Shown: positions 53,393 through 62,685, counted from the stretch's first letter. The stretch is DNA of 64,000 nucleotides from Flavobacteriales bacterium (GCA_023957375.1 JAMLHB010000003.1:131830-195829), one strand, 5' to 3'. Program-made: numbers and translations. Notes: generated by a model from the sequence alone, not told the origin.

Positions 53393-56300
53393 TCATCGCG
53401 CACCCCCTCCCGCCGCTTCGCGCTTCCGGCGGGAACGAACGCGGAGCACGCCCCATCCCGCGAGCAGCACGCCCAGGGTCGTAAGCATCCACCACCATGG
53501 CCACCGGCCCCGTGTTTCCACCGGTGCCACATCCCCGGTAAGCACCAAGCCCGCCCAGTAGTAGGGCAAGGCCAGTTCATCCTGGGCCGTGGCGAGGAAC
53601 TCCAACTTGGCTTGGCGCAGCGCCTGGTGCTTGGGCATGCCCTGCTCCAAGTGCTTGAAAAAACTGTCCATGATCTGTGCGCTCACCTTTTCATCGATGC
53701 TCCACAGGGAAGCCACCAAGCTGGGGCAACCAGCATAAGCAAAGCTCGCCCCCAGCGAGCGCACACCCTCGCCCGGGTCCACCTTGCCGCTGCCCGATTC
53801 ACACGCCGTGATCACGGCCAGCTGGGCTTTCAGGTCCAGTGCATAGATCTCATAGGCGTGCAGGTATCCATCACCACCACTGGCCGTGCCGTCGCCGTCC
53901 TTGCTGAGCACCAAGCGGGAATACATCGGCGACTTCGGGTTCATCTCGGCATGGGTGCCGAGGAACAGGATCCCGTAGGTGCCCGCTTGTCTCGTGAAGG
54001 CCTCTTCCGTGGCCGCGGTACCCGTAACCACCGTGGCACCTTCCGACTCTCCAAGTGCCATGGCCGTGCCCATGGCGAACGGTTGCCGCACGAAGCTCAG
54101 GAAGCGGCGATCCATTTCGGCGGTGTCCTTCACTTGGGTGCGATAGGCCTGCTTCACATCGTCGGTAAATCCGGGGGCCATGGCCAGCGTGCCCTTCGCC
54201 CTGCCGGGTGCGCCATCGGCAAATTGGAGCGCCGTGGTGGCACTGAGCAGGTAACTGATCGTGTAGCGATGGATCAGCAGGTGCTCCTTGAAATCCTTCA
54301 CGCCGGGTTGGGAAAGCAAGGCCTCGAAGTTCACCGAACCCAGCTCCGCATCGGGAATGATGAACAATTCACGCGCCGGCAGCTTTTCAGCGATCGGCGC
54401 GAACACGTGGTTGTACACTGCATGGGCATTGGCCACGTAGGCTGCTGATTCACGCTTCATCAACGCGGCCCGGAGTTCATCCACGGCCCGGCCCAGGTCC
54501 TTGGCATCCATCCGCACCAGGTCCGCCGCTTTCTCCCCCACCATCAACGCATAGAGGTGGTCGCCGGCACGCACGTACGACAGCAGTTGCCGGTCCGGTG
54601 CAAGCAAGTGCTTCCGGATGTCCGCAAGGGATGCCGTGCGTCCGCCATGGCGCAGGGCGAAATACTTGGGGTAGGTGTGCTCCAGGAACACCAGGAAATC
54701 GGCATACTCCCGCTCATGCCGGTCCAGATCGGTAATGGAGGCGCGATCTCCTCCCTCAATGGTGACCGCGTCCTGCAGCTCCTGTTCGCGCACCAGGATC
54801 GAATCCGGGACGCCCGCAAACCGTAAGCCCGCGAAGGAATTCAACTTTTCCTTGAGCAGGATCGACCGGTTGGCCTCGGAAAGATCCAGGAACCCTTGGA
54901 GGTCCGCCTCGGAGCGGCTGCGTGCATACTGTTCATAGGCAAGGTCCAGCGCCAAGGCGAAGAGGCGCTGTTGCGATCCGGTAAGCCGTAGCTTGCTGGC
55001 TGCATCCGACAGCCCCGCCCGGTTGCGCTCCAGCGACCGGATGGCCAGCCCGATCATGTCCTTCCAGGTTTTCCGGACGCTGTCGGGGACGGGCATGGCT
55101 TGCTCCGCACGGATCGTCCAGTACACCACATCGGGCAGCAGCCCAGGCTCGGCGCAGGAGGTCGGGCCGTTCCCGGTGAGCACCGCTTGTGCGCGGTCCT
55201 GCATCATGGCCCAGGCTCCGCGGGCCAGGTCGCGCGCTTGTTGGAAGCGGCCGATGAGGAATGCCTGCTCGGCCATGCGTACATCGCACAAGGCAACACC
55301 TGCGTTGTCCTCCTGCGTCGCAAGGCGCGCCGCGATATCCCGTGCTTGCCGCAAATCGTCGAAGGCTTCCGTGTGCAGGCCCAGGCCGCTTTTCATGCTG
55401 GCCCGCTTTTTCAAGGTGCCCAGCAGGATGGAGCTGGTGGCGTCATCCGCAACGTGCCGCCCATTGGCAATGCTGAGCCGGAACAGCGAATCCGCACTGG
55501 TGCGGTTCCCCTGCTGCGCCAAGATATCGGCCAGCTTCGCTGCTGCGCGGACGTACTCCTCGCTCTGCTTGCCGTAGCGCTGTTCGCAGGCAGTGAGGTA
55601 GGCGCGCTCAAGCACTTCGGCCTTTTTCAACGCGCCTGCCGCCAGTTCCAGGTCGGCCATGCGATCGCGCACCGAGAGCAGCTGCGGATCATCGGGGTGC
55701 AGCACGCTGCTGCGGTCCGTCCAGGCCAGTTCCAGCAGTTCCCGCGCGCGGCCCTCGTCGCCGATGGCGAAGTACACGGTGGCCAGGTTCAAATACGTAC
55801 GGGAGCGGTTCACCGTGGCTTCATCGCGGGTGAACGGGTCCTTGGTCGCAGCCAGCAGCTGATCGAACATCCGCAAGCTGGCGTGGTAATTGGCTTTGCT
55901 TCGCGCCAGATCGCCTGATTGCTGCCAGAGCACACCCAAGTTGCCATAGGTGCTGGCCTTGCGGTTCAGGATGGGCTCCGTGGTGCCGTCCCCCAATGTT
56001 TCCAAGGCCTTGTTGTACCATTCTTCAGCCTCATGGACAAAGCCGAGGTGCCAATTGGCCACGCCTGCGGCGGTGTACGATTCGGCCCATTGCGCCACAG
56101 CCACCGAATCCGCCTTTGCGTACTCCCTCAATGCCGCCTTGGCCTGGGCAAGGGAACTTCGGTGATCGCCGATGATGCTGTAATCGAACGCCAAGTACTG
56201 GTGTGCCCTTCCGCCCATGGCGCGGGGCACTCCGGGCCGTTTCGCGACCACGGTGGCCAGTGAATCAACCCGCACGCATTGCTTGTACCGCCCGGCCTCG

Positions 56301-56635
56301 TAATAGATCCAGCTCAGGTCGAAGAGGGCATCCATGCGGTCTGCCGCCTTGTAGGTGCTCCCCATGCGCGCCAACACGCTTTCGGCAGCGGCAATACCGG
56401 CATCCGCGCCTTTGGTCTTACCCATGGCGCGGCCATACTTGTACAGGTACTGGTGGAGGGAATCCTGCCACGTGGTGCCTTGGGCCTGCTCCAGTTGGGC
56501 CTCGATCAAGCGTGCCACTTCCGCGTAGCGCTCCGCTTCATACGCTTTGCCAATGAGCGCGTGGCGCGCAGCCAGATCCTGCGCCCCGGCATGGAGCGAA
56601 ATAGAGACCAACAGCAATGCCCAAAAGCTCCTCAT
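53393..56635 (-). CDS. CHAT-domain (caspase-like) protease with TPR array
   Basis: 1080 residues. Signal peptide MRSFWALLLVSISLHAGAQ. Residues of about 25 to 450 form TPR-type helical repeats (AYEAERYAEVARLIEAQLEQ, TYGNLGVLWQQSGDLARSKA). The CHAT domain occupies about 700 to 1020: catalytic His near 895 in ILFLGTHAEMN and catalytic Cys near 945 in AVITACESGSGKVDPGEG, then ASFAYAGCPSLVASLWSIDE. A membrane helix near 1045-1065 is followed by a basic tail (RVRSRRKREAAGGG), so the protease should face the periplasm anchored in the inner membrane. It is the third gene after an ECF sigma factor and an anti-sigma-like protein. CHAT proteases are known in bacterial defence and death pathways, but others serve signalling; the role here is open. 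Confidence 0.88.
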   Translation of the reverse strand: MRSFWALLLVSISLHAGAQDLAARHALIGKAYEAERYAEVARLIEAQLEQAQGTTWQDSLHQYLYKYGRAMGKTKGADAGIAAAESVLARMGSTYKAADRMDALFDLSWIYYEAGRYKQCVRVDSLATVVAKRPGVPRAMGGRAHQYLAFDYSIIGDHRSSLAQAKAALREYAKADSVAVAQWAESYTAAGVANWHLGFVHEAEEWYNKALETLGDGTTEPILNRKASTYGNLGVLWQQSGDLARSKANYHASLRMFDQLLAATKDPFTRDEATVNRSRTYLNLATVYFAIGDEGRARELLELAWTDRSSVLHPDDPQLLSVRDRMADLELAAGALKKAEVLERAYLTACEQRYGKQSEEYVRAAAKLADILAQQGNRTSADSLFRLSIANGRHVADDATSSILLGTLKKRASMKSGLGLHTEAFDDLRQARDIAARLATQEDNAGVALCDVRMAEQAFLIGRFQQARDLARGAWAMMQDRAQAVLTGNGPTSCAEPGLLPDVVYWTIRAEQAMPVPDSVRKTWKDMIGLAIRSLERNRAGLSDAASKLRLTGSQQRLFALALDLAYEQYARSRSEADLQGFLDLSEANRSILLKEKLNSFAGLRFAGVPDSILVREQELQDAVTIEGGDRASITDLDRHEREYADFLVFLEHTYPKYFALRHGGRTASLADIRKHLLAPDRQLLSYVRAGDHLYALMVGEKAADLVRMDAKDLGRAVDELRAALMKRESAAYVANAHAVYNHVFAPIAEKLPARELFIIPDAELGSVNFEALLSQPGVKDFKEHLLIHRYTISYLLSATTALQFADGAPGRAKGTLAMAPGFTDDVKQAYRTQVKDTAEMDRRFLSFVRQPFAMGTAMALGESEGATVVTGTAATEEAFTRQAGTYGILFLGTHAEMNPKSPMYSRLVLSKDGDGTASGGDGYLHAYEIYALDLKAQLAVITACESGSGKVDPGEGVRSLGASFAYAGCPSLVASLWSIDEKVSAQIMDSFFKHLEQGMPKHQALRQAKLEFLATAQDELALPYYWAGLVLTGDVAPVETRGRWPWWWMLTTLGVLLAGWGVLRVRSRRKREAAGGGAR

Positions 56636-56638
56636 TGC

Positions 56639-57361
56639 TCATTGACCGATCTTGTCCTCGATCTGCCGCACCCGTTCTCCGTATGTACCGTCCCGCTCCA
56701 TGCCCAGTGCCCGCATCTCTTCGTAACGGCCTTCATGCAGCAAGGAGAGGAACAGGAACCACTTGGCCTTTTCATGGAAAGCCGACGCCGGATCGTTGGC
56801 GACAGCCTTGTACAGGGGAATTGCGCCGGCGGCATTGCCTTTCGCGAGCTGTGCGTTGGCGATGTAATAGTTCAAGGTGTCATTGCCGGGCGAGGCAGGC
56901 AACAGCTTGTTCCATTTGTCGGCAGCTTCCTGGTAGTCTCCCAGTTTATAGGCCACCATGGCATCCTGGAAGGCGGGATTGCGGGTGGCGCTCATGGGCA
57001 CGGGCAGTCCCGGGTCTGTTTGGTGGAATTCCGCATAGAGGCGCTCATTCAGCGGCGGGCGGCTGAACCACCACAGCCCACCGATGAGCAGCACGGCCAC
57101 GGCAGCGGCGTACTTCAGGAAATGGCCCCATCCGGTGGATCCGCGTTCTTCATCCTGCGCCATGATGCTGCGCAACGATCGCTGCATGCCGCCCAATTCC
57201 ACGGCCAGCATGTTCTCGCGCTGCATCGCCACTTCGGCGCGCAGCTCCGGGTCGGTGTTCAGCTCCTGCTCGAACCGCACGCGATCTGCTGCCGGCATGC
57301 TTCCGAGCAAATAGGCCTCGATGGCCTCAAACCGTCCTTGTGCCAATGCTCCCTTGCTCAT
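56639..57361 (-). CDS. Anti-sigma-factor-like membrane protein with TPR-like periplasmic part
   Basis: 240 residues. The N-terminal part (FEAIEAYLLGSMPAADRVRF, EQELNTDPELRAEVAMQREN) has the helical pattern of the zinc-free anti-sigma domains usual in Bacteroidota. One membrane helix follows (FLKYAAAVAVLLIGGLWWF). The periplasmic part has TPR-like helices (MVAYKLGDYQEAADKWNKLL, NAQLAKGNAAGAIPLYKAVA). The ATG overlaps the sigma gene's stop by four bases, and the CHAT gene starts three bases after this stop. It probably holds the sigma factor at the membrane and senses a periplasmic state. Confidence 0.8.
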   Translation of the reverse strand: MSKGALAQGRFEAIEAYLLGSMPAADRVRFEQELNTDPELRAEVAMQRENMLAVELGGMQRSLRSIMAQDEERGSTGWGHFLKYAAAVAVLLIGGLWWFSRPPLNERLYAEFHQTDPGLPVPMSATRNPAFQDAMVAYKLGDYQEAADKWNKLLPASPGNDTLNYYIANAQLAKGNAAGAIPLYKAVANDPASAFHEKAKWFLFLSLLHEGRYEEMRALGMERDGTYGERVRQIEDKIGQ

Positions 57362-57942
57362 GGTTCAGTCTCCTTTCCCCCATCCGCAATGTGCTTGCGG
57401 AAGGCGCGCAGCTTCATCATGCAGCGGTATTTGATGGTGCGGATGCTTTCTTCGGTTACGCCCATCGCTTGGGCGATGGTGGCCATGTCTTCCCGCTGGA
57501 AATAAAAACGGCCCAGCACGGTGCGGCAGTGTTCGTCCATGCGGTCGTACACCTGTATCAGCCGTTGGATCCGTTCTTCCAGGTCCACCGTTTCCACGTC
57601 ATCGGGCGCGCCGGTATGTTCAACGGGTACCACGGTCATGGTGCGCTGTGCGGCCGACCGTACGCGGTCCAGCCATTTGTTTTTGGAGACCCGGAACAGG
57701 AAGGCACCCGGTTCGGTATTCTGTTGCAAGGTGCCGTCCTTGGCCTTCAGCCACAGCACGGTAATGGCATCCTGGAACACGTCCCGGGCATCCTCCGCGG
57801 TGCCGCTGTTGCGTTGCACATACTGCTTCACCGTGGGGAAATGCAGCGCATACAGCTTCTTGAGCGTACCGGGATCGTTCCGCACCAGTGCTTCCGCCCA
57901 AGCGGAAAAAAACAATATGTCCGCCGCAGCCTTTTGTTCCAC
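57358..57942 (-). CDS. ECF-type RNA polymerase sigma factor
   Basis: Region 2 is visible (LKKLYALHFPTVKQYVQRNS, EDARDVFQDAITVLWLKAKD, FLFRVSKNKWLDRVRS). Region 4 ends the protein (EHCRTVLGRFYFQREDMATI, AQAMGVTEESIRTIKYRCMM). No ATG precedes region 2 in the right place; the GTG at 57942, with GGAAG nine bases before it, gives 194 residues of normal size. The open frame continues to 58155 without family support. First gene of the sigma - anti-sigma - CHAT operon, divergent from the large T9SS gene, which it might control. Confidence 0.88.
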   Translation of the reverse strand: MEQKAAADILFFSAWAEALVRNDPGTLKKLYALHFPTVKQYVQRNSGTAEDARDVFQDAITVLWLKAKDGTLQQNTEPGAFLFRVSKNKWLDRVRSAAQRTMTVVPVEHTGAPDDVETVDLEERIQRLIQVYDRMDEHCRTVLGRFYFQREDMATIAQAMGVTEESIRTIKYRCMMKLRAFRKHIADGGKETEP

Positions 57943-58155
57943 TGGCTTTTGCTTCCAAGTTGCGATAATACGGGAATTGGGCGGTTTGTGCCATCGCTCT
58001 GGTCGCCCCGATTTTGACCCGGGTTCAAGAACCCATCGGGGTAGGTTGAAAAGGTGAACGGGCTTGGCTGAAAAATTCTTGGGAATAACCCTTCCCCATC
58101 CCTTGAAGACTGGCTGCCCGCGCGGCCGCCACCGGTAGTCGCTCTTTTGCAGCAC

Positions 58156-58347
58156 CCTGTCCGTGTCCCCCTATTGTGGGATTGACACCCGCCCTGGCAA
58201 TTTTCCTGATTTGCTATTGGCAATCATGCCATCCAGACCTCAGTGACAAGGCAGCAAAAAAAATGAACCGCCCGTTCACATCCCGACCCGCAATCCGATA
58301 AGCAGTCATCAAACGTCCTCAACCCTTCCTCTAAACCGTTACGCACC
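58156..58347. other. Divergent promoter region
   Basis: 192 bases upstream of the large T9SS gene, facing the ECF operon on the other side. No exact TAnnTTTG match was found. The region would hold control signals for both directions. Otherwise nothing is recognised. Confidence 0.3.
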
Positions 58348-61300
58348 ATGAAACCCAACCGAAGACTCCTTGCCCACGCCCTGGCCCTGGCCGTACCGCT
58401 GTGTACATGGGCGCAAACGGAAACGGAACCCAACAACGCCTGGAACCAGAACAACCCGGTGGCGGAAGAAAGCTCCATGAGCGGTTCCTCCGGCACCTGC
58501 AGCCCCACGGACAACAGTGTGGACTACTTCGCGCTGGCCCTGACCCAGGTGGGGCAGTTGAAGATCCGCACCAGCATGAGCAACGATGGACCCACCTCCG
58601 GGGTTTCCCTCGCGCTGTATGATAAGAACGTGGGTCAGATCGCCAGTTTCAACCTCGCCAGCGGGGTGAACGGCGCTTCCGCGCTGGACAGCATCGTCTT
58701 TACGTGCCGGGGCACCGGCACCTACTACCTGCGCCTGAATGCGCCAGCCATCGGCTGCCTGAGCTACACCTTCAGCTACGAAATTTTGCCACCGGTCTTT
58801 GGCGCCGACACCGAGAACAACAACAACTGGAACACCGCCAATACCGACACCGTGGCAGTGAACACCAATGCGGACGGGCGAATCAATTTCAGCCAGAACG
58901 ACGACAACAGCGATTTCTTCATTCTGGAACTGGACGATGACGGCATCCTGAACGTCCACATCCAGGCCGAACACGTGGATGCCTCCACGGGGGACAGCCT
59001 CACAGTACGGTTGTACAATAGCAGCGTAGCCCTACAAAAGACCTGGCGCGTGGGCATCGGGGCGAACTCCACGCCTCTCGCTTCCACCGTTAGCATCCCC
59101 TGCCGGGGCAATGAGCAGCGCTACTTCCTGCAATTCGCCAGTGATGCCTGCGGCACCTCCTACCGCTTCAGTTACGATGTGACGCCACCGGTGTTCGCCG
59201 ATGACAATGGGGACAACTACAACTGGAATTCCCCCAACACGGATACCGTGGCCGTGGGCGCAGATCAGGACGGTCGCCTCAACTTCAACTACGATGACAA
59301 CAGCGATTACCACATCCTGACGCTGGACGATGACGGCATCCTGAACGTCCACATCCAGGCCGAACAAGTGGATGCCTCCACGGGGGACAGCCTCACGCTA
59401 ACGCTCTACAACAGCTCGGCCCAACTGCTCAAGACCTGGCGCGTGGGAGTCGGGGCCAATTCCACGCCGCTTGATTCCACGGTCCACATGACCTGCCGCG
59501 GGAATGAGGCTCGATACTTCCTCAAGTTCGCCAGCGATGCCTGTGGCACCTCCTACCGGTTCAGCTACGACGTGACCTCCCCGGTGTACGCCGATGACAA
59601 TGGGGACAACTACAACTGGAATTCCCCCAACACGGACACCGTGGCGGTAAGCACCGATGCCGACGGCCGCCTCAACTTCTACTACGACGACAACAGCGAT
59701 TACCACATCCTGACGCTGGACGATGACGGCATCTTGAACGTCCATATCCAGTCCGAACACGTGGACGCCTCCACGGCGGACAGCCTCACGGTACGGCTGT
59801 ACAACACCAGCAACGGCCTGCTCCAAACCTGGCGGGTGGGCATCGGGGCCAATTCCACGCCGCTTGATTCCACGATCCACATGACCTGCCGCGGGAATGA
59901 GCAACGCTACTTCCTCCAATTCGCCAGCGATGCCTGCGGCACCTCCTACCGTTTCAGCTACGACGTGACCTCCCCGATGTTCGCCGATGACAATGAAGAC
60001 AACGACAATTGGAATTACCCCAACACCGACACGATCTTCCTGGACTCCGCTGCGGTGACCGGTCGGTTGGCCTTCTACTACGATGACAATTCGGACTTCT
60101 ATAAGGTGGTCCTCACCACAGCGGGGACGATCACGGTGGACAGCCGGGCCGAGAATGCCAATGCCGCCGGCACTTACGACGTGCACTTGTACAACAGCAA
60201 CGTGAACCAGATCGCTACCCACACCTACCCGGTGGGCGGCTCCTCCACCCCCGCAAGCGATACATGGACCTCCGGGCCCCTGGCCGCAGGCACCTACTAC
60301 CTGCGAGCCACAAACGCTCCGTGCGGCACTAGCTACAGCTTCCTGTGCAACGATGAGGATGATGACGGCGTGTGCAACGGCTTTGACCTTTGCCCCGGCA
60401 CACCCAACGGCGAAGGCGTGAATGCCAACGGCTGCTCCTGCTCGCAGGTCACCGTGGATGACGGCGATCCCTGCACGCTGGACGAATGCCTCAACGGCGA
60501 CGTGACCCACACCTTCCAGGATGCCGACGGCGACCTGACCTGCGATGCCAACGACGGCTGCCCCAACGATGCCAACAAGACGGCGCCCGGTGCCTGCGGC
60601 TGCGGCAACCCCGATGTGCCCACCACGTGGTATGCCGATGCGGACGGTGACGGCTTGGGCGACCCCAATAACAGCATAGCGGGCTACACCTGCATCCAGC
60701 CTCCGGGCTACGTGTCCGACAACACGGACGGTTGCCCCAGCGTGACCGGCACCGTGGGCAGCGCCTGCGACGACGGCAACCCCAACACCACCGGCGATGC
60801 GCTCGATGCTAGCTGCAACTGTGTGGGCACGCCCATGGGCTGCGATGACGGCGACCCCTGCACCTTGGACACCTGGGACGGATTCCAGTGCGTGCACACC
60901 TTCCAGGATGCCGATGGTGATGGCACCTGCGATGCCAACGACGGCTGCGTGAACGACCCCGACAAGACCGCCCCCGGCGCTTGCGGTTGCGGCAATCCCG
61001 ATGTGCCCACCACCTGGTTCGCAGATGCGGACGGTGACGGCTTCGGTGACCCGAACACCAGCCAGGCCGGCTTCACCTGCATCCAGCCTCCGGGCTATGT
61101 GGCCGACAACACCGACCACTGCGATGGCGATGTGAACAAGACCGATCCCGGCGCCTGCGGCTGCGGCGTGGCCGATGTGGCCACCACGTGGTACGCCGAC
61201 ACCGATGGGGACGGCTTGGGCGACCCCAACAACAGCCAGGCGGGCTTCACCTGCATCCAGCCTCCGGGCTATGTGGCCGACAACACCGACCTGTGCCCTG

Positions 61301-62685
61301 CCGTGACCGGCACCGTGGGCAGCGCCTGCGACGACGGCAACCCCAACACTACCGGTGATGCCATCGATGCCAATTGCAACTGCGTGGGCACGCCCAACGG
61401 TGGCCCCTGCACCGGCAACCAAGTGGTGGTCAACATCACCACGGACGCGAACCCTGCACAGTTGAGCTGGGAGATCCGCGACGGCGGGAACGTGCTGGTG
61501 GCCTCCGGTACGCCCGCCACGCCCAATGGCCTGAACTCTGAAACCGCCTGCTTGGGCAGCGTGGTTGAAAGTGCCTGCTACAGTTTCAAACTGCTGGACA
61601 GCTTCGGCGACGGGCTTGCCGGAGCAGGTGGCTGGGAACTGCGCACCACGGACGGCAAACTGGTCCTGCGCGATGATTTCGCCAACGGAAGTGTGTCACC
61701 CGCCACCCCGACGGCCTCGCCGAGCTACGGCAGCGGCCACAGCTTCTGCCTGCCCTTGGGCTCCTCGCGCGTCATGGCCAACGAGTGCAACGTATTCACC
61801 AACGGCATGTATGACAAGGTGTACTGCAGCAAGGTGACCGGTGCCACCCAGTACCAGTTCGAGTTCAGCGACCCCGACGCAGGCTTCATCCGCCGCATTG
61901 CACGCCCGCACAACTACGTGGTGTTCTACGAGATGGTCTCCAGCCCCTTAGTGCCCGGCGTAGTGTACTTCACCCGCGTGCGCACCAATGAGGACGGTCC
62001 CTTGGCCAGCGCACACTGGGGTTCGGGCTGCGACCTCGGCCTAGGCATCGCCCAGGTGGTGCAGTGCACCCAGCTGATACAGGCGCCCGCCTACGGCCAC
62101 TCCTGCAACGAGACCCGCAGCTTCATCGCGCCCTACAACTACCTCTATGCCAAGCCCGTGACCGGCGCCACCACGTACACCTTCAAGATCACCGGTGACG
62201 ACGGCAACTATAACGGCGGCATCGAGTTCGTCCGCAACACCTACATCCTCGCACTGGGCTGGGGTACTGGCGAGGCACCGGCCTTGACGGACCAAACCAC
62301 CTACCAGGTGCAGGTGCGCGTAACGGTGAACGGCATCGAAGGCACCTACTGCGGCAACTCGTGCAACGTCACCATCGACAACAACCCCGGTTTGAGGCCG
62401 CGCCTGGCACAGACCGAGGGACAGCCTGAAATGAGCCTCTGGCCGAACCCCAACAACGGACAGCACCTCAACGTGGCCATGGGCGGCTTGAACAGCGAGC
62501 TCACCACCGCCGACGTGCGCCTGATGGACCTCACCGGTCGCGTGGCCTTGGGCACCCAACTGAACGTGTTGGACGGTGCCATCAACAGCGTGATCGAGCT
62601 GAGCAGTACCGCCAACGGCACCTACCTGCTACAGATCATCGCCGGTGGCAACACCTACACCAAGCGCGTGGTGGTGAGCAAGTAA
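58348..62685 (+). CDS. Giant repeat-containing surface protein with T9SS sorting domain
   Basis: 1445 residues. Signal peptide PNRRLLAHALALAVPLCTWA then Q. An N-terminal module with pre-peptidase-like features (TETEPNNAWNQNNPVAEESS, GTGTYYLRLNAP) is followed by four tandem units of about 131 residues (58803 to about 60350). The next part (60350-61420) has calcium-type Asp-rich repeats (WYADADGDGLGDPNNS) and many cysteines (TAPGACGCGNPDVPTTW), in three or four copies. Further domains lead to the sorting domain (MSLWPNPNNGQHLNVAMGGL to YTKRVVVSK). It is probably an adhesin or structural surface protein. No enzymatic motif is seen. Confidence 0.88.
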   Translation: MKPNRRLLAHALALAVPLCTWAQTETEPNNAWNQNNPVAEESSMSGSSGTCSPTDNSVDYFALALTQVGQLKIRTSMSNDGPTSGVSLALYDKNVGQIASFNLASGVNGASALDSIVFTCRGTGTYYLRLNAPAIGCLSYTFSYEILPPVFGADTENNNNWNTANTDTVAVNTNADGRINFSQNDDNSDFFILELDDDGILNVHIQAEHVDASTGDSLTVRLYNSSVALQKTWRVGIGANSTPLASTVSIPCRGNEQRYFLQFASDACGTSYRFSYDVTPPVFADDNGDNYNWNSPNTDTVAVGADQDGRLNFNYDDNSDYHILTLDDDGILNVHIQAEQVDASTGDSLTLTLYNSSAQLLKTWRVGVGANSTPLDSTVHMTCRGNEARYFLKFASDACGTSYRFSYDVTSPVYADDNGDNYNWNSPNTDTVAVSTDADGRLNFYYDDNSDYHILTLDDDGILNVHIQSEHVDASTADSLTVRLYNTSNGLLQTWRVGIGANSTPLDSTIHMTCRGNEQRYFLQFASDACGTSYRFSYDVTSPMFADDNEDNDNWNYPNTDTIFLDSAAVTGRLAFYYDDNSDFYKVVLTTAGTITVDSRAENANAAGTYDVHLYNSNVNQIATHTYPVGGSSTPASDTWTSGPLAAGTYYLRATNAPCGTSYSFLCNDEDDDGVCNGFDLCPGTPNGEGVNANGCSCSQVTVDDGDPCTLDECLNGDVTHTFQDADGDLTCDANDGCPNDANKTAPGACGCGNPDVPTTWYADADGDGLGDPNNSIAGYTCIQPPGYVSDNTDGCPSVTGTVGSACDDGNPNTTGDALDASCNCVGTPMGCDDGDPCTLDTWDGFQCVHTFQDADGDGTCDANDGCVNDPDKTAPGACGCGNPDVPTTWFADADGDGFGDPNTSQAGFTCIQPPGYVADNTDHCDGDVNKTDPGACGCGVADVATTWYADTDGDGLGDPNNSQAGFTCIQPPGYVADNTDLCPAVTGTVGSACDDGNPNTTGDAIDANCNCVGTPNGGPCTGNQVVVNITTDANPAQLSWEIRDGGNVLVASGTPATPNGLNSETACLGSVVESACYSFKLLDSFGDGLAGAGGWELRTTDGKLVLRDDFANGSVSPATPTASPSYGSGHSFCLPLGSSRVMANECNVFTNGMYDKVYCSKVTGATQYQFEFSDPDAGFIRRIARPHNYVVFYEMVSSPLVPGVVYFTRVRTNEDGPLASAHWGSGCDLGLGIAQVVQCTQLIQAPAYGHSCNETRSFIAPYNYLYAKPVTGATTYTFKITGDDGNYNGGIEFVRNTYILALGWGTGEAPALTDQTTYQVQVRVTVNGIEGTYCGNSCNVTIDNNPGLRPRLAQTEGQPEMSLWPNPNNGQHLNVAMGGLNSELTTADVRLMDLTGRVALGTQLNVLDGAINSVIELSSTANGTYLLQIIAGGNTYTKRVVVSK
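58803..60350 (+). repeat. Four tandem intragenic repeats of about 393 bases
   Basis: Units begin near 58803, 59200, 59590 and 59983, each starting with a phrase like ADDNGDNYNWNSPNTDTVAV and containing LDDDGILNVHIQAEHVDAST and FASDACGTSYRFSYDV. The second and third share long identical DNA runs; the fourth is diverged. This suggests recent unequal crossing-over or gene conversion. Confidence 0.85.

Follow-up and report, generated by a model that had tools for sequence, protein, structure and literature searches.

Introduction

Control of sigma factors by proteolysis of anti-sigma factors is already known, and so is a protease combining tetratricopeptide repeats (TPR) with a CHAT domain that cuts a sigma inhibitor. 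In Craspase, the Csx29/Csx30/CASP-sigma system of type III-E CRISPR, the TPR-CHAT protein is encoded beside a sigma factor and its inhibitor, and Csx29 cleaves the sigma inhibitor Csx30 (PMC10028731). Here we analyzed a DNA stretch of 64,000 nucleotides from a Flavobacteriales bacterium (GCA_023957375.1 JAMLHB010000003.1:131830-195829), called the window below, with positions counted from its first letter. It carries an operon for an extracytoplasmic function (ECF) sigma factor, a predicted anti-sigma factor and a putative TPR-CHAT protease, and we put the probability that this membrane-anchored CHAT protein is the dedicated periplasmic site-1 protease of the adjoining membrane anti-sigma factor at roughly three in four. 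Craspase is cytoplasmic and RNA-activated through Cas7-11, and Csx30 has not been described as a membrane anti-sigma factor, whereas the window system has a signal peptide, a membrane anchor and a motif in the anti-sigma factor that is paired with a pocket position of the protease.

Three further systems are related in part. In DegS/RseA/RseP and RsiW-type proteolysis a membrane anti-sigma factor is cut outside the membrane and then by an M50 protease, as is predicted here, but the site-1 protease of DegS/RseA/RseP is a serine PDZ protein and not a cysteine CHAT protein with a large TPR part. CHAT genes are also known near ECF54 sigma factors, for which proteolytic control was proposed (PMC8999054); ECF54 is described as lacking an anti-sigma factor, which is central here. 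HetF likewise combines CHAT, TPR and one membrane helix (PMC8406250), but its CHAT domain is N-terminal, it functions in heterocyst development and the divisome, and no sigma/anti-sigma pair has been described for it.

Results

The three genes form a compact operon on the minus strand, in which the anti-sigma gene overlaps the sigma gene by 4 bp and is separated from the CHAT gene by 3 bp. The features on which the argument depends are the following.

57358..57942, minus strand: ECF sigma factor, GTG start (Pfam Sigma70_r2/r4, TIGR02937), first gene of the genus-conserved trio
56639..57361, minus strand: anti-sigma factor, 240 amino acids (aa), with cytoplasmic helical domain 1-72, membrane helix 78-99, juxtamembrane helix 104-112 and periplasmic TPR 129-218 (NCBIfam/Pfam, AlphaFold model, relatives)
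56987..57016, minus strand: putative cleavage motif D116-PGLPVPM↓SA125 with the proposed scissile bond (↓) between M123 and S124 (codons 56993-56995 and 56990-56992), near-invariant in the genus and R↓[SGND] in most other Bacteroidota
53393..56635, minus strand: putative TPR-CHAT protease, 1080 aa, membrane-anchored, predicted periplasmic
56579..56635, minus strand: signal peptide of the CHAT protein, residues 1-19
53531..54427, minus strand: CHAT catalytic domain, residues 737-1035
54065..54067, minus strand: CHAT Thr857, proposed S1-pocket position
53951-53953, minus strand: CHAT His895
53801-53803, minus strand: CHAT Cys945
53438..53497, minus strand: membrane helix at the CHAT C-terminus, residues 1047-1066, followed by a basic tail and modelled as helix 1047-1076; it marks the sigma-linked class

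A sequence-only reading of the window had described three coupled genes, and all three open reading frames were recovered where it had placed them. Its sigma start also agrees with the best placement at GTG 57942, in a frame that is open up to 58155. The sigma factor contains sigma-70 regions 2 (E=3e-8) and 4 (E=2e-6) only, as in ECF sigma factors. CHAT is present in 36 of 45 genomes of the genus, and in tblastn searches with the window proteins the order sigma, anti-sigma, CHAT was kept in the great majority of loci of the window type; the trio is therefore not a chance arrangement. The genus also has a second, short CHAT protein (about 800 aa), which adjoins a sigma/anti-sigma pair and is convergent to it in several loci. 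PADLOC gave no match for any of the three proteins, and a reading as a defense system was therefore dropped. No Cas protein was present among the annotated window neighbors, although a genome-wide Cas scan was not made.

The 240-aa protein matched TPR_16 with E=2e-6, just under the curated cut-off, and an NCBIfam "anti-sigma factor" model with E=7e-8, under the equivalog cut-off. Its AlphaFold model had a predicted local distance difference test score (pLDDT) of 91, with a less confident loop at residues 113-128 (about 72 in the motif loop). According to model and gene order, it combines an N-terminal helical domain, one membrane helix and a periplasmic domain with a position next to an ECF sigma gene, as expected of a membrane-spanning anti-sigma factor, and its predicted role is that of a sigma-binding inhibitor. 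A plasmid search with this protein gave no match. Five Prolixibacteraceae homologues (L163, L166, L169, L171 and L173) are unusually long (about 500 aa) and have the same R↓S motif.

The CHAT protein consists of a signal peptide, a TPR superhelix, the CHAT domain and a membrane helix. Its Pfam match (PF12770, E=7e-55) scored 187 bits against a curated cut-off of 24. The sequence-only reading had held that the catalytic His and Cys are kept, and these residues, H895 and C945, are conserved without exception in the membrane-anchored relatives (38 of 38). The signal peptide (MRSFWALLLVSISLHAGAQ) and the C-terminal helix, both part of the same reading, are visible in the sequence and recur in relatives, and the helix is followed by the basic tail RVRSRRKR. 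Signal peptide, membrane helix and basic tail, read by the positive-inside rule, predict a periplasmic location for the TPR and catalytic parts. Together with the model layout of the anti-sigma factor, this topology would place its TPR sensor and the CHAT protein in a common compartment.

The structural model of the CHAT protein (pLDDT 89) matched Csx29 best, with a Z score of 30.8 across TPR and CHAT, and superimposed on separase catalytic domains with a Z score of 27 and a root mean square deviation of 3.1 Å. A match to Peptidase_C50 reached 18.1 bits, below the cut-off of 27.8, so that membership of the separase family failed while the fold is similar. A profile search against PDB sequences had only TPR proteins among the matches listed. 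The loop right after Cys945 (residues 947-956) is the only longer stretch of the model with a pLDDT below 50. In Csx29 the catalytic-Cys loop rearranges upon activation, and a similar allosteric switch of loop 947-956 is plausible.

The window's protein is the sole CHAT protein in its own 3.8-Mb genome. At the level of the class, CHAT proteins split into a soluble clade (support 98/98, 29 rows) and membrane-anchored proteins, and a sigma/anti-sigma pair was nearby in 19 of 29 anchored loci versus 4 of 31 soluble ones (Fisher p=4e-5). A general link between CHAT and sigma factors was ruled out by this low share in the soluble clade and because most CHAT genomes outside the class lack this anti-sigma family. 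Among 197 genomes of the class, 26 had both an anchored CHAT protein and this anti-sigma family, 2 and 4 had only one of them and 165 had neither; these genomes span about a dozen families but are related, so that a p-value overstates independence. The four CHAT-only genomes include three (G053, G208 and G231) with a weaker anti-sigma match directly beside CHAT. In a survey of 80 named GTDB loci, 44 anchored CHAT genes had enough flanking sequence, and 27 of these had sigma and anti-sigma genes within 3 kb and 1 a sigma gene only.

The layout of these loci varies: CHAT and the pair occur tail-to-tail, divergent or co-directional, or CHAT is located in the middle, with the anti-sigma gene divergent from it and the sigma gene convergent to it. 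As the partnership outlasts many rearrangements, operon inertia fails as an explanation. The partners also decay together. In three species of genus g56 without a CHAT match, the pair was lost or fused. In two of them (G430 and G520, loci L239 and L241), an internal deletion had fused the sigma start in frame to the anti-sigma end, removing the DNA-binding end of the sigma factor and part of the sigma-binding domain of the anti-sigma factor. The sigma gene was missing in G491, and short CHAT remnants were present in G491 and, beside the fusion, in G520. The sequence-only reading had suggested a co-occurrence survey in Bacteroidota and had named CHAT varying independently of the sigma pair as evidence that would speak against it; such independence was not seen for the membrane-anchored class, be it in the genus trio, the 197 genomes and the flanked GTDB loci, the rearranged neighborhoods or the joint decay.

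Some loci have other arrangements. Two different anti-sigma genes flank CHAT, one per side, in L157, L159 and L161. In L037 (G005:C118:50312-51508), a second, diverged CHAT gene with an in-frame TAG lies beside a weak anti-sigma and sigma match. Same-family sigma/anti-sigma pairs without CHAT within 8 kb (L125-L139, L142 and L143) have neighbors that include a histidine kinase, a Fic protein, a TonB-dependent receptor and DsbD.

A variable segment of the anti-sigma factors, located between membrane helix and TPR domain, ends in a near-invariant residue pair. In most Bacteroidota this pair is Arg (rarely Lys) followed by Ser, Gly, Asn or Asp, whereas a Met-type motif, P-G-[LF]-P-x-x-Met followed by Ser or Gly, is found in this genus, in its short paralog and in several other families. 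The residue after the proposed P1 position is almost always small (S/G/N/D/A). Each neighboring pair was typed from the anti-sigma factor alone before the CHAT columns were examined. Among all aligned columns, column 857 showed the highest mutual information with motif type: Glu was present in 64 of 64 Arg-type and 1 of 2 Lys-type pairs, in no Met-type pair and in 0 of 2 Leu-type pairs. In Met-type pairs the column contains Thr, Leu, Tyr, Ala or Asn, and two degenerate paralogs align Asp in a gapped stretch. A second sample, with types again set beforehand, had Glu in 28 of 29 Arg-type and 0 of 3 Met-type pairs, and one ambiguous case was without Glu. As the soluble clade has Glu in 32 of 32 cases, Glu is the family default that was lost where the motif changed. 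Position 982 of the window's protein, which begins a helix, is Asp in 63 of 66 Arg- or Lys-type pairs and mostly Glu in Met-type pairs.

The P1 Arg is bound by a residue at the helix after β1 in gingipain R, MALT1 and modelled separase, and these proteases carry a second acid on the helix after β5 (PMC4626109, PMC4357240), the element at which position 982 of the window's protein starts a helix. Residue 857 is on helix 852-861, the first after β1 in the catalytic domain, and was for this reason matched to the P1-specificity element of clan CD. Arg-type relatives match separase (C50) in both acids, and the catalytic domain of the window's protein shares its fold at 3 Å. Separase differs in being eukaryotic, cleaving cohesin and being held by securin, and the window protein has lost the first acid and has a predicted preference for Met. 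The TPR-CHAT protein of bacterial Craspase has Lys in place of the corresponding separase acid and does not cleave after Arg (PMC9729208). A covariation of this kind across two genes is to be expected between a protease and its cleavage site, and it points to the anti-sigma factor, not another envelope protein, as the substrate; the sequence-only reading had named both as possible targets.

The same contact could have another meaning. The motif might occupy the active site of CHAT in a securin-like manner and restrain the protease, whose true target would be another envelope protein. Covariation shows contact and not turnover, securin does hold separase as an inhibitor (PMC9729208), and the two proteins are predicted to share a compartment. 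We nevertheless consider this explanation unlikely, since P1 is almost always followed by a small residue, as would be the case at a cleaved bond, the motif lies between membrane helix and sensor domain, where site-1 proteases cut anti-sigma factors, and Csx29 does cut its sigma inhibitor.

Several observations weigh against cleavage of the anti-sigma factor by an anchored CHAT protease. The topology was derived from hydropathy only. Neither partner was found within 3 kb of 16 of the 44 fully flanked anchored CHAT genes, some motif labels (ambiguous cases) were set by eye, and the Arg-type pair L254 has no Glu at column 857, in a gapped stretch. The motif was kept by 15 of 17 anti-sigma factors without CHAT within 8 kb, mostly in genomes with CHAT proteins elsewhere, so that it needs no linked CHAT and is not exclusive to linked pairs. 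Constant loss of the motif in the absence of CHAT, as first seemed the case in four genomes (L138, L142, L226 and L227), was likewise rejected: the CHAT-less genome G455 has R↓G in the motif region and three recently decayed pairs keep the motif, which leaves its loss without CHAT suggestive. Moreover, the covariation is in part due to shared ancestry. With column 857 left out of the tree, about 6 changes of motif type are needed, but well-supported branches alone force only 2 changes, as expected if motif and column had changed in the same lineages through linkage and descent and without any contact. That this accounts for the whole pattern is very improbable, as column 857 ranks first of all columns and lies at the clan CD P1-residue position, Met-type cases occur in several families and the second sample agrees.

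The upstream regions of the operon contain a candidate promoter, GTTCAC[AC]-N13-17-CGAT, which was present in the sense direction in 24 of 25 genus upstream regions versus 0.07 expected, and in 20 also in the other direction. In the window, two copies (0.03 expected) flank the sigma start.

58035..58059, minus strand: predicted sigma-dependent operon promoter, GTTCAC-N15-CGAT
58274..58299, plus strand: same promoter motif facing the divergent gene, found by motif search
58348..62685, plus strand: divergent secreted protein of 1445 aa, sorted by the type IX secretion system (Por_Secre_tail), candidate regulon member with the motif 49 bp upstream

The window's own genome had 18 matches versus 2 for a reversed control. 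Three more genes have a site at their start or immediately before it: one encodes a 405-aa protein that has no Pfam match, and the other two encode LuxR-type (GerE) regulators. The two regulator genes (C2:366634 and C2:369438) are near-paralogous and about 3 kb apart, each with the motif. The sigma factor probably drives a small regulon in addition to its own operon.

CHAT might then be output rather than input, that is, merely a regulated envelope protease in an ordinary sigma/anti-sigma envelope-stress switch. It does lie inside the operon that is probably autoregulated in the window, and lone sigma/anti-sigma pairs exist without a nearby CHAT. In other lineages, however, CHAT and the pair are encoded on different strands, in convergent or divergent orientation, so that co-transcription is not the conserved feature, and the covariation of motif and pocket would be left unexplained; this alternative appears quite improbable.

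Discussion

Our proposal is that CHAT acts as a separase-like cysteine protease that is anchored in the inner membrane and exposes both its TPR part and its catalytic part to the periplasm. An envelope signal, presumably sensed by the TPR superhelix of CHAT or the TPR domain of the anti-sigma factor, would lead CHAT to cut the anti-sigma factor in its loop directly outside the membrane, with the cut following Met123 in this system and Arg in most relatives. Intramembrane cleavage by an M50/RseP-type protease would follow, for which the single gene of this type in the genome (PF02163, E=1e-52) is the candidate site-2 protease, and the released ECF sigma factor would transcribe a few genes in addition to its own operon. 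Beyond this locus, we find it fairly likely that widespread anchored periplasmic separase-like proteases serve the Bacteroidota as dedicated site-1 proteases of anti-sigma factors, and that pocket and site have co-evolved, with several lineages changing from Arg to Met specificity. To judge from the accessible literature, three points are new: the anchored class in the periplasm, the coupling of this class to a membrane anti-sigma factor across Bacteroidota, and a covariation that names bond and specificity residue; even so, CHAT may have been mentioned earlier in connection with an ECF group of Bacteroidota.

If the proposal is true, it would, together with Csx29/Csx30, make cleavage of a sigma inhibitor by a TPR-CHAT protease a general bacterial signaling module on both sides of the inner membrane and would connect the CRISPR pathway of Csx29/Csx30, an unusual one, with a module of wider occurrence. 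It gives a large, mostly uncharacterized class of proteases a concrete candidate substrate, scissile bond and specificity residue, so that the targets of non-CRISPR CHAT proteases become directly testable by one residue swap per partner. Envelope signaling in Bacteroidota would, by this prediction, use one more type of site-1 protease.

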